Origin: Syntrophomonadaceae bacterium
GTDB taxonomy: Bacteria > Bacillota > Dethiobacteria > SKNC01
DNA: 46,621 bases
NCBI GenBank assembly: GCA_003560915.1
Contig: PWJM01000091.1
Span: 1-46,621, forward strand
Direction: 5' to 3'
Below, piece after piece: positions 31,475 to 37,979 of the stretch; the stretch's first letter is position 1; each line of letters starts with the position of its first letter. The translations under genes were made by a program, and so were the position numbers. A model generated the notes under the pieces. It did not search any database. It saw only the letters and a list, made by a program, of their open reading frames with translations, and was not told the origin of the DNA.

Positions 31475-31852
31475 TTATATTTTGTTCACCTGGTCTTGAT
31501 TAATTTTTACAATTTTGTTCTGAGAGTCCACCAGGACTGTTTTCACTTCAAACTGGTCCAGTTCATTTTCTGGGACCAGGGAATAAGTAATAATAATAAT
31601 CAAGTCTCCTGAATGGGCCAGGCGTGCTGCCGCACCGTTCAAACATATTTCTCCGGAACCGGCTTCCCCTTCAATAACATAGGTTTCAAACCTGGCACCA
31701 TTATTTATATTTACCACGTGAACCTGCTCGTAAGGAAGAATCCCTGAGGCTTTAAGAAGCTCACTGTCAATGCTTATGCTTCCATTATAGTTCAGATCGG
31801 CATCGGTTACTGTGGCCCGATGGATCTTTGACTTAAACATATGACGAAACAT
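31475..31852 (-). CDS. panD: Aspartate 1-decarboxylase
   Basis: MFKSKIHRATVTDADLNYNGSISID (Gly-Ser processing site) ...NGARFETYVIEGEAGSGEICLNGAAARLA. Start likely 31852 with GGAGGTGC RBS. Confidence 0.97.
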   Translation of the reverse strand: MFRHMFKSKIHRATVTDADLNYNGSISIDSELLKASGILPYEQVHVVNINNGARFETYVIEGEAGSGEICLNGAAARLAHSGDLIIIITYSLVPENELDQFEVKTVLVDSQNKIVKINQDQVNKI

Positions 31853-31853
31853 T

Positions 31854-32702
31854 TTATAGCACCTCCACAATAATATTGTCAATTAAACGTGTTTTGCCTA
31901 CTTTAACAGCCAACGCGATAAGAACCTCATCCTTCAATTCTTCCAAAGTTTCCAGGTTGGTAGTGTCCGCAATCTCGATGTATTCCAGCTTAGCCATAGG
32001 TTCACGGAAAATAATCGCCTCCATAGCACCGATAATCTTTGAACCCTTCCTGCATCCACCCAGGATTAGTTCCTCCGCCCGGTTCAAGCTTTTATAAAGA
32101 ACCAGGGCAGTTTCCCTCTCCTCTGAAGACAAATACGTATTTCGGGAACTCATGGCCAGTCCATCCGCTTCCCTTACGGTAGGCATAATTTTTAGGGTCA
32201 GATTCATGTTCAGGTCTGCTGCCATTTTTTTCAAGACCAGGGCCTGCTGTGCATCCTTTTGTCCAAAATAGGCTGTGTCCGGTTCCAACAAGTTGAAAAG
32301 TTTTGTGACCACGGTGGTAACTCCCCGGAAATGACCAGGCCGCCCCCGCCCGCACAGTCCCCGGGTTAATTTCTCCACCAGCACATAAGTATCATATCCC
32401 TGGGGATACATATCCCGGTCTGAAGGAGAAAATATCAAGTCCACTCCCTCTTCCCGGCACAGACCGGCATCGGTGGTAAGGTCCCGGGGATAATGTTCAA
32501 AATCTTCCCCTGCCCCAAACTGTATAGGGTTTACATAAATGCTAACTGCCACAAAATCGCACTCACTCCGGCCAGCCTTTACCAGGGAAAGATGTCCCTG
32601 ATGCAGGTGCCCCATGGTTGGGACCAAACCTATGGTGCCACCTGATTTGCGAACTTCACGGACAATTTTTTTCAGCTCCGGTATGGTCCTGACTATTTTC
32701 AT
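31854..32702 (-). CDS. panC: Pantothenate synthetase
   Basis: MKIVRTIPELKKIVREV...GLVPTMGHLHQGHLSLVKAGR...VSIYVNPIQFG. Start likely 32702, not 32765. Confidence 0.97.
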   Translation of the reverse strand: MKIVRTIPELKKIVREVRKSGGTIGLVPTMGHLHQGHLSLVKAGRSECDFVAVSIYVNPIQFGAGEDFEHYPRDLTTDAGLCREEGVDLIFSPSDRDMYPQGYDTYVLVEKLTRGLCGRGRPGHFRGVTTVVTKLFNLLEPDTAYFGQKDAQQALVLKKMAADLNMNLTLKIMPTVREADGLAMSSRNTYLSSEERETALVLYKSLNRAEELILGGCRKGSKIIGAMEAIIFREPMAKLEYIEIADTTNLETLEELKDEVLIALAVKVGKTRLIDNIIVEVL

Positions 32703-32712
32703 TTGACCACCC

Positions 32713-33552
32713 CTAGTCCAGGAGTTCCTCCAGGGTTTCTCCCAGGTTAAATATGTGTTCCTCACCGGGAAAATCGCCTTTCTTTACTTCACCCACGTAA
32801 TCCTTGATCCCTTTAACCATTTCTTCCCGTAAATTTAAATACTGCTTAACAAACTTTGGCCTGAACTCGTCAAACATCCCCAAAACATCGTGAAATACCA
32901 GCACCTGCCCATCACAATTCTTCCCGGCACCAATGCCAATGATAGGTATGGACAGCTGAGCAGTAATGAATTCGGCTAACTGCCAGGGGACACATTCCAG
33001 TACAATGGCGAAAGCTCCTGCTTCCTCCAGGGCTTTAGCATCTTCAAACATCTTCTTAGCTGCCTCTTTATCTTTTCCCTGTACCTTGTATCCTCCCAGC
33101 TGGCCTACGGACTGAGGTGTTAATCCCAGATGGCCCATTACCGGGATCCCGGCCTCCACCATGCCTCTCACCGCTTCAACTACTTCTATCCCACCCTCCA
33201 GCTTTACCGCCTGGGCTCCTGTTTCCTGAATTACCCGGCCTGCATTTCTCAGGGCGTCATCGCGGTTTACCTGGTAGGTCATAAAGGGCAGGTCCATTAC
33301 TACCATGGCCCTCTGGCTTCCTCTTACCACCGCTTTTCCGTGATGAATCATTTCCTCCAAAGTAACCGCCAGAGTATTTTCATACCCCAGCACTACCATT
33401 CCCAATGAATCCCCCACCAGAATCATGTCCACTCCGGCTTCATCTACAATTTTCGCCTGTGAATAATCATAAGCGGTGAGCATGGTTGATTTTTCACCTT
33501 TTCCCTTTTTCTCCCTCAGGTCAAACGTGGTTACTCTGTTCTTTTTTGTCAT
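32713..33552 (-). CDS. panB: 3-methyl-2-oxobutanoate hydroxymethyltransferase
   Basis: 279 aa; [45 protein letters not shown]. Confidence 0.97.
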
Positions 33553-33556
33553 TACA

Positions 33557-34423
33557 TTACACCTCCAGAACTTTCAGCAGCTGTTCCGCCTGCTGTTTAT
33601 CAATACTTCCCTTTTCCAAAGCCACCTGAACTGTATATTTACCCAACTCTCCATAAAGAGATACGCTTTCCGGCATCTTGTTTTTCATTATAGTAAAATG
33701 ATCTCGGATGGTAGAATAGTCACCCCGGGAAATAGGGCCGGTAAGCCCCTGAGGCACTCCCACTGTTTCAATATTCTGCAGTGCTCCCCTAATCAATGGC
33801 AGCAGTGCTTTAAGTGCATTTTCTTTAGGGATGCCCAGTTCCTCCATCATGCTGAGGCCTAGCCGTATAATGGCCACAAAGTAATTGGAAACCACGCAGG
33901 CCGAGGCATGATACAGGGGTTTCATTTCCGTAGGGATTTCCAGCATAAAACCCTCCAAATCCGATATCATTCTGCGAACAAAAGGCAGCCCTTCTTCATC
34001 ACCTTCTACGGCAAAGTAGGAACCCGGAAGATTTCTTACTCCTGCCTCCGGACCGGGAATGGTCTGCAGAGGATGTACAGACATCACATGTGCCCCGCTG
34101 GCCCGGGCAGAAGATAAAATTTCCGAACTGTGGGAACCGCTGGTATGTATTGCCAGGTCTCCCTCTTTAAAGCCTTTCTTCCTGGAGATCAGGTTACAGG
34201 TCTCTTGAATTACCCGATCAGGGGTAGTAATAAAAATGACATTGGCCGTCTTTAAAACTGGGAAAATATCGATATACCCTTCTGTTCCGATAACTTGCCC
34301 TCCTCTTTGGGCAGATTCCGCAGTTCTGCTGATTATTCCGGCAATTTGATAACCTTTCTTTTTCAGAAGTAACCCCAGGGTAATCCCCACATTTCCCGCA
34401 CCCACAATGGCTATAGATTCCAT
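33557..34423 (-). CDS. Rossmann-fold + DUF2520 protein; candidate PanG-type ketopantoate reductase
   Basis: [32 protein letters not shown]...; [11 protein letters not shown]...[26 protein letters not shown]. Function inferred from position upstream of panBCD and resemblance to the PanG family. Start likely 34423. Confidence 0.8.
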
Positions 34424-34459
34424 AGCATTTCCTTTCATGAATGGTATTTAGGAAAAAAA

Positions 34460-34487
34460 AAATATCCCTCTTGACTGGTCAAGAAGG
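34460..34487 (-). terminator. Terminator/attenuator hairpin in the pantothenate operon leader
   Basis: Minus strand CCTTCTTGAC-CA-GTCAAGAGGG-ATATTTTTTTTTT: 10-bp stem then a T10 run, only ~40 nt before the start codon. Confidence 0.7.
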
Positions 34488-34499
34488 CATAGTACTCCG

Positions 34500-34563
34500 T
34501 AAAAAAAAATAACGCTCCTTCTGTCCCGGTCCAACCGTTGGCTCCAGGCAGATCCATCGTTAC
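34500..34563 (-). ncRNA. Structured leader RNA, candidate 'pan' motif element
   Basis: RNA UAACG-AUGGA-UCUG-CCUGG-AG-CCAA-CGG-UUGG-A-CCGGG-A-CAGA-AGGAG-CGUUA then U9: nested stems with unpaired A residues on the 3' side, upstream of the pantothenate biosynthesis operon. Confidence 0.55.
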
Positions 34564-34588
34564 TATTCACTTATACATTCCATGTATG

Positions 34589-34617
34589 ATTATATAGGGA
34601 CAAGTGAAAAATTTCAA
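34589..34617 (-). promoter_or_regulatory. Near-consensus sigma-A promoter of the pantothenate operon
   Basis: Minus strand TTGAAA-N17-TATAAT (-35 at 34612-34617, -10 at 34589-34594). Confidence 0.8.
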
Positions 34618-34731: not shown

Positions 34732-35718
34732 TTAATCTAGAGGTGTTTCCAGAATACTTTTTAGTAATTTAACACCATTTATTACATCATCATAATCTAC
34801 CATTTCCGAGGGTGTATGAATATATCGGCAGGGAATCGACATTACTCCAGAGGGAACTCCCTCCCTGCTCAAATGAATGGCTCCAGAATCTGTGCCGCCC
34901 CTTTCCAAAACTTCCAACTGGTAGGGGATTCCTGTCCTTTCTGCCGCATCCACCATGATTTTTTTTACTTTTGGATGAGTAATGATTAACGTATCCTTAA
35001 CCTTAACCGTAGGCCCTTTTCCCAGGGCTACAGCCATGGTTTCTGATTCCGGCGTGTCACCGGTCCGGGTTACATCCACCGCCAGGCCATAATCCGGTTT
35101 AATCCGGTACGCAGAAGTCCTGGCCCCTCTTACCCCAACTTCCTCTTGAACAGTAAAAACAAAGAAAAGGTCGTTAACCGGAGACTCTATCTCCTTCAAA
35201 GCCTGAATCAGTACCGCACATCCCACCCGGTCATCCAGCGATTTGGAAATAATACGCCTTCCCAAATCCTGAAAACCTCTCTGGTAAACAGCGATATCCC
35301 CAATTTTTACCTGGTCTTCTGCTTCCTTCTGTTCTGAGGCACCTATGTCGATGTACAACTTCTGAAAATTTAGGTCCTTCATACTCTCGATCTTTTCACA
35401 CCCGATGGTGCCTACCGCTCCATTGGCAAAAACTACTCTTTCTCCCAGAAGTATGTGGGGTGAAATCCCCCCCACGTTGGAAAAACGTAAGAAACCGTTT
35501 TTGTCAATATAGGTTACCATAAGCCCCAGTTCATCCATGTGGGCTGCCAACATAACCCTCTTCCCCGGGCCTTTTTTACGGGCGATTAAATTGCCAAGGC
35601 TATCTACTTCCATTTTGTCAACCATGGGCTTTATTTTATCTTCGATTACTTTTCTAACAGTTTCCTCCCTCCCGGAAGGACCATAGGCTTCGGTTAACTC
35701 TTTAATCAATTCCTTCAT
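34732..35718 (-). CDS. M42 family metallopeptidase (copy 3 of 3)
   Basis: 328 aa; AHMDELGLMVTYIDKNGFLRF, SLDDRVGCAVLIQ, FTVQEEVGVRGA, RGGTDSGAIHLSREGVPSGVMSIPCRYIHTPSEMV. Confidence 0.95.
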   Translation of the reverse strand: MKELIKELTEAYGPSGREETVRKVIEDKIKPMVDKMEVDSLGNLIARKKGPGKRVMLAAHMDELGLMVTYIDKNGFLRFSNVGGISPHILLGERVVFANGAVGTIGCEKIESMKDLNFQKLYIDIGASEQKEAEDQVKIGDIAVYQRGFQDLGRRIISKSLDDRVGCAVLIQALKEIESPVNDLFFVFTVQEEVGVRGARTSAYRIKPDYGLAVDVTRTGDTPESETMAVALGKGPTVKVKDTLIITHPKVKKIMVDAAERTGIPYQLEVLERGGTDSGAIHLSREGVPSGVMSIPCRYIHTPSEMVDYDDVINGVKLLKSILETPLD

Positions 35719-36742
35719 TATTAAAACCCCCTTCCGGTAAATTTTTCAAGAAAACATCTACCAATTTCACTGTATTCTCCATATCTTTTAAGTTTAAAAT
35801 GCCTGCTGGATTATGTATATAACGACAGGGCACAGATACTACTGCTGAAGGGACGCCTTCTCGGGTAAGGGCTATTCTGCCGGCATCTGTTCCGGCACCG
35901 GTAAAACGTCTAATCTGGTAGGGAATTCCATTCTGTTCCGCCAGTTTCTTTAAAAATTGGACCATTCCCCTATGGGTAATCACCGAAGCATCCATAATAG
36001 TAAGGGCCGGGCCTTTGCCTAAGGTAGTAACATGCCCTTCCTTTTTGACTTCCACTACATCCGCCGCCGTTGTACCCTCTACCACTAAAGCCAGGTCGGG
36101 TTTAATTCTGTATGCAGCTGCGCCGGCCCCTCTCATACCTACCTCTTCCTGGACAGTGAAGACTCCGTAAAAGGAATAAGGGTAATTTTGCTTTTTTAAT
36201 ATTTCTATGAGAACCGCACAACCCACCCGGTTGTCCAGAGCTTTCCCTTTGGCACAGTGATCACCAATTTCTTCAAAACGGGTAATAAAAGATATATAGT
36301 CTCCCAGCTTTACCTTCTTTTCTGCTTCCTCCCTGCTGCCGGCACCAATATCAATGTACATATCATCTATTTTTATAGATTTTTTTCTTTCCTCGGGTTT
36401 CTGCAGATGAATCGCTTTAGCGCCTATGACCCCTGGAATCTTTTGAGGCCCTATCTGTACCACCTTGGACACTAAAACCCGGTCATCAATCCCGCCTACC
36501 TTGGAGAATTTGATTAAGCCGCTTTTTTCAAACCCTACCACAATCATCCCCACTTCATCCATGTGGGTAACAATCATCAGTGTAGGGCCTTCCTTTTCTC
36601 CTTTTTTTCGTACAATCAAGTTTCCCAAAACATCCGTTTCAGCTTCCTCTACATGGGGGCTCACCTGCTGCCGGATGATATTCCTTATTTCCTGCTCTCC
36701 TCCGGAAACACCGGAGGATTCAGATAACGTTTTCAAAAGCAT
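35702..36742 (-). CDS. M42 family metallopeptidase (copy 2 of 3)
   Basis: 346 aa; THMDEVGMIVVGFEKSG, ALDNRVGCAVLIE, FTVQEEVGMRGAG, GAGTDAGRIALTREGVPSAVVSVPCRYIHNPAGIL. Confidence 0.95.
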   Translation of the reverse strand: MLLKTLSESSGVSGGEQEIRNIIRQQVSPHVEEAETDVLGNLIVRKKGEKEGPTLMIVTHMDEVGMIVVGFEKSGLIKFSKVGGIDDRVLVSKVVQIGPQKIPGVIGAKAIHLQKPEERKKSIKIDDMYIDIGAGSREEAEKKVKLGDYISFITRFEEIGDHCAKGKALDNRVGCAVLIEILKKQNYPYSFYGVFTVQEEVGMRGAGAAAYRIKPDLALVVEGTTAADVVEVKKEGHVTTLGKGPALTIMDASVITHRGMVQFLKKLAEQNGIPYQIRRFTGAGTDAGRIALTREGVPSAVVSVPCRYIHNPAGILNLKDMENTVKLVDVFLKNLPEGGFNNEGID

Positions 36743-37794
36743 TCCGTCAGCTCCTTCAATCCGTCTTGTTTTTGAGCGGCGATGAATCTTGCCAACAGCC
36801 TGGCAGAATGTTTTATATCTTCCATTGAAAGAAGTTCAACCGATGTGTGCATATACCTGAGGGGGATAGAAACCAACCCGGTGGCAATTCCTTCCCTGGA
36901 AATCTGAAGTGCCCAGGCATCGGTGCCGGTGGGTCCCGGAGCGGCATCCTTCTGATAAGGAATTCGGTATTCCTCTGCAAGCTCTACCAATTTTTTGTAA
37001 ATTACCGGATGTATGTTAGGACCCGTGGTAATCACCGTGCCTTTACCCAGAAAAGAAGTTCTGTATTCCGGTACACCGGGCATATCTCCATGACAGACAT
37101 CAATGGCAATGCCCATGTCCGGCGCGACACCATAGGCAGACACGATGGCTCCCCTTACTCCTACCTCTTCCTGGACCGTGGCTACAGCATAAACATCCGC
37201 ATCATGTTTTAACCCCTGCAGTTCCTGCAGGCATTGGAGCACTACCGCTACTCCGGCCCGGTCATCCAGGGCTTTCCCTGCAGCCATCTGTCCCCCCAGG
37301 CGTACAAATTCTCTACGTATGGTAATGATATCTCCAACGGATACCACTTCTTTTACTTGAGCTTCAGAAAGGCCCAGGTCTATGTAAAGCTTATCCATCT
37401 TTACGCCTTTTTCCATTTCATCAGGCTCTAAAATATGAGGCGATTTGGCCCCAATCACTCCGGGCAGATCTTTTTTTCCGTGGACCAAAACCTCCTGGTT
37501 CAATAATGACCGGGGATCTATCCCCCCCACGGGAGATATTCGTAAAAAGCCGCCCTCCTCAACCTTGGAAACCATAAGGCCAATTTCATCCATATGGGCA
37601 GCCAGCATAATCTTCAGGCTGTCAGGTCCACTATTGAGGCCTTTTTTTAGGGCTATCACATTACCCAGAGCATCCCGGCGTACCTGATGGGAGTTCTTTT
37701 TGAACTCCTCCACCACGATTTCAGCTACTCTGTCTTCATATCCGGAAACCCCTGGAGTTGTAGATATTTTTTGCAGAAATTCTGTAATATCCAC
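36733..37794 (-). CDS. M42 family metallopeptidase (copy 1 of 3)
   Basis: AHMDEIGLMVSKVEEGGFLRI, ALDDRAGVAVVLQ, ATVQEEVGVRGAI, GPTGTDAWALQISREGIATGLVSIPLRYMHTSVELL. GTG start at 37794 preceded by GGAAGGAG. Confidence 0.95.
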   Translation of the reverse strand: MDITEFLQKISTTPGVSGYEDRVAEIVVEEFKKNSHQVRRDALGNVIALKKGLNSGPDSLKIMLAAHMDEIGLMVSKVEEGGFLRISPVGGIDPRSLLNQEVLVHGKKDLPGVIGAKSPHILEPDEMEKGVKMDKLYIDLGLSEAQVKEVVSVGDIITIRREFVRLGGQMAAGKALDDRAGVAVVLQCLQELQGLKHDADVYAVATVQEEVGVRGAIVSAYGVAPDMGIAIDVCHGDMPGVPEYRTSFLGKGTVITTGPNIHPVIYKKLVELAEEYRIPYQKDAAPGPTGTDAWALQISREGIATGLVSIPLRYMHTSVELLSMEDIKHSARLLARFIAAQKQDGLKELTECF

Positions 37795-37979
37795 CTGATA
37801 ACTCCTTCCTACCCCTATGAGGAATATTTTTCTATTCAATCCAGATTAAATATTCTATAAAAAAAACAAATTTCCTTTAATTATCAATTATCTACCGTTA
37901 AAATTATTTCTCTCCAAAAAACGCTGCGGTTATACACCCTGACTTCACGTAAAAAACTCGCCTGACAGCAGATATCCAA

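Follow-up and report, generated by a model that had tools for sequence, protein, structure and literature searches.

The pan motif (RF01749) is a stem with two conserved bulged A residues located 5' of pantothenate genes (Weinberg et al. 2010, PMC2864571), and most of its members, although not all, show a tandem arrangement (PMC2864571). Weinberg et al. (PMC2864571) read this small and usually tandem element as the site of a dimeric protein and left its riboswitch column as '?'; the same work presents the crcB and pfl motifs as riboswitch candidates whose terminators overlap them. No CoA riboswitch appears in a 2022 review (PMC9971707), and other publications either just list pan or discuss pantothenate genes, offering no mechanism for it (PMC4634765, PMC4342826, PMC5670726, PMC11487621). 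An attenuator pairing is described for pan neither in the main text of PMC2864571 nor in the other publications reviewed, and the pan terminator may have been noticed earlier, for instance in supplementary alignments. The motif has been on record since 2010 without a mechanism or an effector, and reading it as an attenuator offers a concrete test.

The window is the whole analysed stretch of 46,621 nucleotides from a Syntrophomonadaceae bacterium (GCA_003560915.1, contig PWJM01000091.1). All the leader features and the pan operon lie on its minus strand, as follows:

34612..34617, minus strand: promoter -35 element TTGAAA; TTGAA(A/T) in all five family members
34589..34594, minus strand: promoter -10 element TATAAT; predicted start of transcription near 34582
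34558..34564, minus strand: 5' strand of the outer closing stem, AGUAACG, from fold prediction
34521..34551, minus strand: pan hairpin; A34543 and A34524 are the conserved bulges
34517..34522, minus strand: AGAAGG, end of the pan 3' arm and conserved 3' flank; proposed 5' strand of the antiterminator
34508..34514, minus strand: 3' strand of the outer closing stem, CGUUAUU, overlapping the start of the U9 region
34453..34487, minus strand: intrinsic terminator, hairpin 34487-34466 followed by U10 at 34462-34453; kept at the equivalent place in relatives
34477..34487, minus strand: terminator 5' arm and loop edge, CCUUCUUGACC, containing CCUUCU at 34487-34482
34482..34487, minus strand: CCUUCU in the terminator 5' arm; proposed 3' strand of the antiterminator
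33557..34423, minus strand: gene for a DUF2520/Rossmann protein, first in the operon; start codon from comparison with relatives
32713..33552, minus strand: panB (TIGR00222)
31854..32702, minus strand: panC (TIGR00018); start inferred at MKIVRT
31475..31852, minus strand: panD (TIGR00223); start inferred at MFRHMF

The promoter (34617-34589) carries 11 of the 12 consensus bases and a 17-nt spacer, in agreement with the near-consensus TTGAAA-N17-TATAAT noted in a preliminary description of this DNA, and the four relatives in the window's family keep TTGAA(A/T)-17-TATAAT at the equivalent position. The DUF2520–panB–panC–panD genes downstream give the leader the 5' UTR placement of RF01749, and from this gene context the product of the first gene is possibly a ketopantoate reductase. 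Downstream of panD lies a glutamate 2,3-aminomutase-like radical SAM gene (TIGR04368; 29994-31253, minus strand), which is not counted as part of the operon, since a hairpin with a T-run stands between it and panD. Directly upstream of the pantothenate operon, three tandem genes for M42 glutamyl aminopeptidases occupy 34732-37839 on the minus strand. An inverted repeat, ATACATGGAATGTAT (34573-34587, minus strand), sits directly over the predicted transcription start; it is less perfect in the relatives G001 and G002 and is possibly an operator or due to chance.

The Rfam pan model matched the leader at 34595-34517 with 31.5 bits (E 8e-4 in a 311-base stretch), below the gathering cut-off of 36.2, which is the threshold of a two-hairpin model and not a structural feature of every pan RNA; genome-wide, the leader was the best match (E 0.0012). 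The score stays under the threshold because the model needs two hairpins: its 3' hairpin matches fully, and its first hairpin falls on the promoter and start region. The tandem arrangement is absent here, with no second hairpin in the upstream half of the leader (-0.1 kcal/mol in the window versus a median of -10.1 in others), and the usual place of the first hairpin is taken by the conserved promoter in all five family genomes. A one-hairpin covariance model (R2), trained on 45 hairpins from which the window's family members were excluded, gave 40.3 bits at 34551-34517 (E 6e-9 genome-wide, the next best match having E 0.13) and 40-42 bits for the other family members. Moreover, in an alignment of 50 3' hairpins 93.4% of the cells are paired, both partners vary in 8 of the 11 pairs, and the observed covariation was reached by none of 500 shuffles. 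Together, the sub-threshold Rfam match, the independent one-hairpin model, the covariation and the gene context identify the leader as a pan RNA with a single hairpin, not a tandem. The preliminary description had proposed precisely such a single-stem element ahead of the pantothenate operon, and the proposal is borne out by covariation among homologues and, in part, by Rfam, where a match exists but falls short of the gathering score. Single-hairpin members are missed by the two-hairpin model of Rfam. At the thresholds used, 35 of 60 near genomes and 165 of 399 in a phylum-wide sample carry a pan match.

Several other candidates were discarded. The remaining sub-threshold Rfam matches to the leader (psbA 3'UTR, BTnc201, and snoR11) are at chance level (E 0.66 or worse), and two candidates for a second pan element, a weak match to the one-hairpin model elsewhere in the window's genome at G000:C43 (17.6 bits) and another in the relative G002 at 1018870 (23.7 bits), have no leader-like context. 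A leader peptide starting after AAGGAG was also rejected; the window's frame is not kept in G002.

The leader is predicted to fold into a bulged hairpin within an outer stem (-20.8 kcal/mol, z -2.63, with 1 of 200 shuffles as good), as had been drawn from the sequence previously. Its invariant unpaired A residues, alignment columns 9 (A34543, 5' strand) and 28 (A34524, 3' strand), are the two conserved bulged A residues of the pan motif. Thus, of the two unpaired A residues named in the preliminary description, 34524 is a conserved bulge, whereas 34530 is column 22 and the other invariant A lies on the 5' side. The base opposite column 22 is U in 27 of the 50 hairpins and otherwise mostly G, as in the window, and therefore a U-A to G-A exchange is tolerated. 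The predicted outer closing stem is suggestive in the window's family and not proven, since it is significant against shuffles in G001 (11 bp, 3 of 500 as good) and G004 (13 bp of different sequence, 1 of 500) and not in the window (132 of 500), G002 (220 of 500) or G003 (378 of 500), where the outer duplex alone is no better than shuffles. In both G003 and G004 this position pairs by a different sequence. In the window's family, the outer stem seems to replace the usual second pan hairpin.

An intrinsic terminator absent from the preliminary description lies between the regulatory RNA and the first gene, as judged from sequence. In the window it consists of the terminator-like hairpin CCUUCUUGA-CCAG-UCAAGAGGG with a U10 tail. 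A hairpin of -10 kcal/mol or lower, followed by a T-run, lies no more than 90 nt beyond the pan end in 116 of the 155 relatives' loci for which enough sequence was available, compared with 14 of 155 after dinucleotide shuffling. Termination of the operon is most likely regulated at this separate downstream hairpin, whose 5' arm would be able to pair with the 3' side of pan.

In relatives, the terminator 5' arm resembles the complement of the pan end, either as CAGAAGG with CCUUCUG or, in a second form, as CGGAAGG with CCUUUCG or CCUUCCG; the last 7 nt of pan in the window are CAG+AAGG. When pan matches were scanned by 7-mers for complementarity to the terminator 5' arm, the maximum fell on the final 7 nt of the Rfam model (11.6 for a locus's own arm versus 10.3 for swapped arms, z 6.1), which also showed the largest locus-specific excess. 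When each of 55 families was represented by a single locus, z averaged 4.8 and 0 of 400 permutations were as high in each of 30 draws; since the 7-mers in this test and in the fold-energy comparison were picked by best fit, the results are to be judged by the swapped and shuffled controls. Perfect 7-bp complementarity occurs in 44 of 138 loci; swapping partners lowers this to a mean of 25, shuffling pan to 7 and shuffling the arms to 5. At the point where transcription has passed the terminator 5' arm but not yet reached its 3' arm, the minimum-energy fold includes the pairing in 49 of 138 loci; shuffled arms give 11-18, and arms taken from other families give 29-36. The terminator base facing pan CAG is U in 27 cases and C in 3, and that facing pan CGG is C in 33 and U in 22, a preference that weakens once collapsed by family (11:3 versus 15:17); independent contrasts for the A/G to U/C switch comprise 4 usable contrasts per tree. 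Swaps within families give weak support (p ~0.07 for the 7-mer, 0.014 for the flank, and 0.025 with RNAduplex).

At the decisive stage, the antiterminator fold of the window is 7.8 kcal/mol worse than pan with the outer stem (median over loci 1.4) and has a predicted probability of ~0, while its cost in family relatives is 0.0 kcal/mol in G003 and 2.4 in G004. The window antiterminator is energetically weak and would therefore need active help or kinetics. Across families, the complementarity suggests a mutually exclusive antiterminator, with weak energetics in the window and weak support within families.

Thus, the leader is probably a transcription attenuator in which the single pan hairpin acts as the sensor and as an anti-antiterminator, the folded or bound pan corresponding to the OFF state. 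An effector would hold the pan stem closed, so that the pan 3' strand would be unavailable, the terminator would form and the operon would be switched off. If nothing holds pan, the basal pairs would open, AGAAGG would pair with CCUUCU as the antiterminator and the genes would be read. A protein that reports CoA or pantothenate status is a likelier effector than a directly bound small molecule. The complementarity predicts exact point mutations and their rescues, as well as the sign of regulation.

Three other explanations have to be weighed against this attenuator. It had been supposed that the closing stem together with the U9 run (34509-34501) might itself be the terminator, and such a stem followed by U9 is indeed present in the window. 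However, the adjoining stem is the outer one, which has 7 bp, is rich in AU and encloses a large internal loop; the predicted fold pairs part of the U9 with the 5' leader; the run is not conserved in the genus, where G001 and G002 have AUUAUUUUU and AUUGUUUUU; and a standard terminator is conserved farther downstream at 34487-34466 with its U10, all of which makes this explanation highly improbable. Alternatively, pan could be a protein-binding hairpin that affects translation or mRNA stability, with the terminator as an unregulated gate that keeps basal expression low. The small size and usual tandem arrangement of pan, interpreted as a dimeric protein site by Weinberg et al. (PMC2864571), the weak antiterminator of the window and the coupling of pan to a Shine-Dalgarno sequence in one family (f69) all speak for it, but the complementarity to the terminator arm centres on a single segment of pan and, between families, is specific to the locus, and this possibility is considered unlikely.

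The remaining explanation, that pan is a small-molecule riboswitch for CoA, pantothenate or pantoate working through the same attenuator, differs from the preferred one only in its effector. It would account for the invariant unpaired A residues and the near-invariant paired bases, and it suits the range of synthesis, uptake and kinase genes in pan operons. Nevertheless, an aptamer of about 31 nt, with a single stem and two bulges, would be very small. Moreover, the riboswitch column reads '?' in Weinberg et al. (PMC2864571) and a CoA riboswitch does not appear in the 2022 review (PMC9971707), so that a riboswitch seems rather unlikely, if slightly less so than the translational or stability hairpin.

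The genes that follow pan in 156 loci bear on the signal that the attenuator might report. They are mostly panB, panC and panD, with or without DUF2520, and include transporters (PanF in 2 loci, PanS-like proteins in 6, with a score of 300.7, below the model's curated cut-off of 400, and ECF S components in 11) and pantothenate kinases (type III CoaX in 7 loci of 6 families, type II CoaW in 3 loci of 1 family). The kinase-containing operons suggest a signal downstream of pantothenate kinase: because the kinases are co-controlled with synthesis and uptake, a signal beyond this step, such as CoA, perhaps fits better than pantothenate itself. In the four f69 loci, the Shine-Dalgarno sequence GGGAGG coincides precisely with the pan 3' flank; the reading frame of an ECF S component follows 8 nt later, and there is no terminator. 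Here, closed or bound pan would again give an OFF state, with the same polarity as the attenuator. A tentative wider picture, for which the case is less than even, is that pan controls the whole CoA supply (synthesis, uptake by PanF, PanS and ECF systems, and type II and III kinases) through a CoA-responsive RNA-binding factor that would switch genes off by means of the pan 3' flank, used either as antiterminator strand or as Shine-Dalgarno sequence, the window's genus representing a minimal one-hairpin form.

Some further peculiarities were observed in these operons. The f69 loci (L125, L128, L130, L153) have an apparent start codon ATA (three loci) or ATT (one) 8 nt after GGAGG, with no ATG, GTG or TTG in frame at the apparent start of the ECF S component, and a link between this non-canonical start codon and pan control is possible. 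In family f100 (L094, L114, L115), pan is followed by an OPT-family transporter and then by a type II pantothenate kinase, a context suggesting that the OPT protein may carry a CoA precursor. In family f48 (L102, L157), pan precedes an amidohydrolase, perhaps a salvage enzyme of this pathway, and later an ECF S component; L102 also has a BirA-like protein. Genes for BirA-like biotin ligases/repressors are strikingly frequent in pan operons (18 loci in 9 families, e.g., L049, L068, L108).

In comparison with known systems, the leader shares with the pan motif RF01749 the two bulged A residues on a stem, the place 5' of pantothenate genes and the sequence consensus, and differs from it in having one hairpin and a probable outer stem instead of the usual tandem pair. 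In its proposed working, it would resemble the PyrR-controlled pyr attenuators, in which a leader hairpin located upstream of an antiterminator/terminator pair acts as the anti-antiterminator. Like the crcB and pfl motifs (PMC2864571), it is a conserved leader RNA coupled to an intrinsic terminator; there, however, motif and terminator overlap, and expression is expected to rise when the motif folds, whereas it should fall when pan folds.
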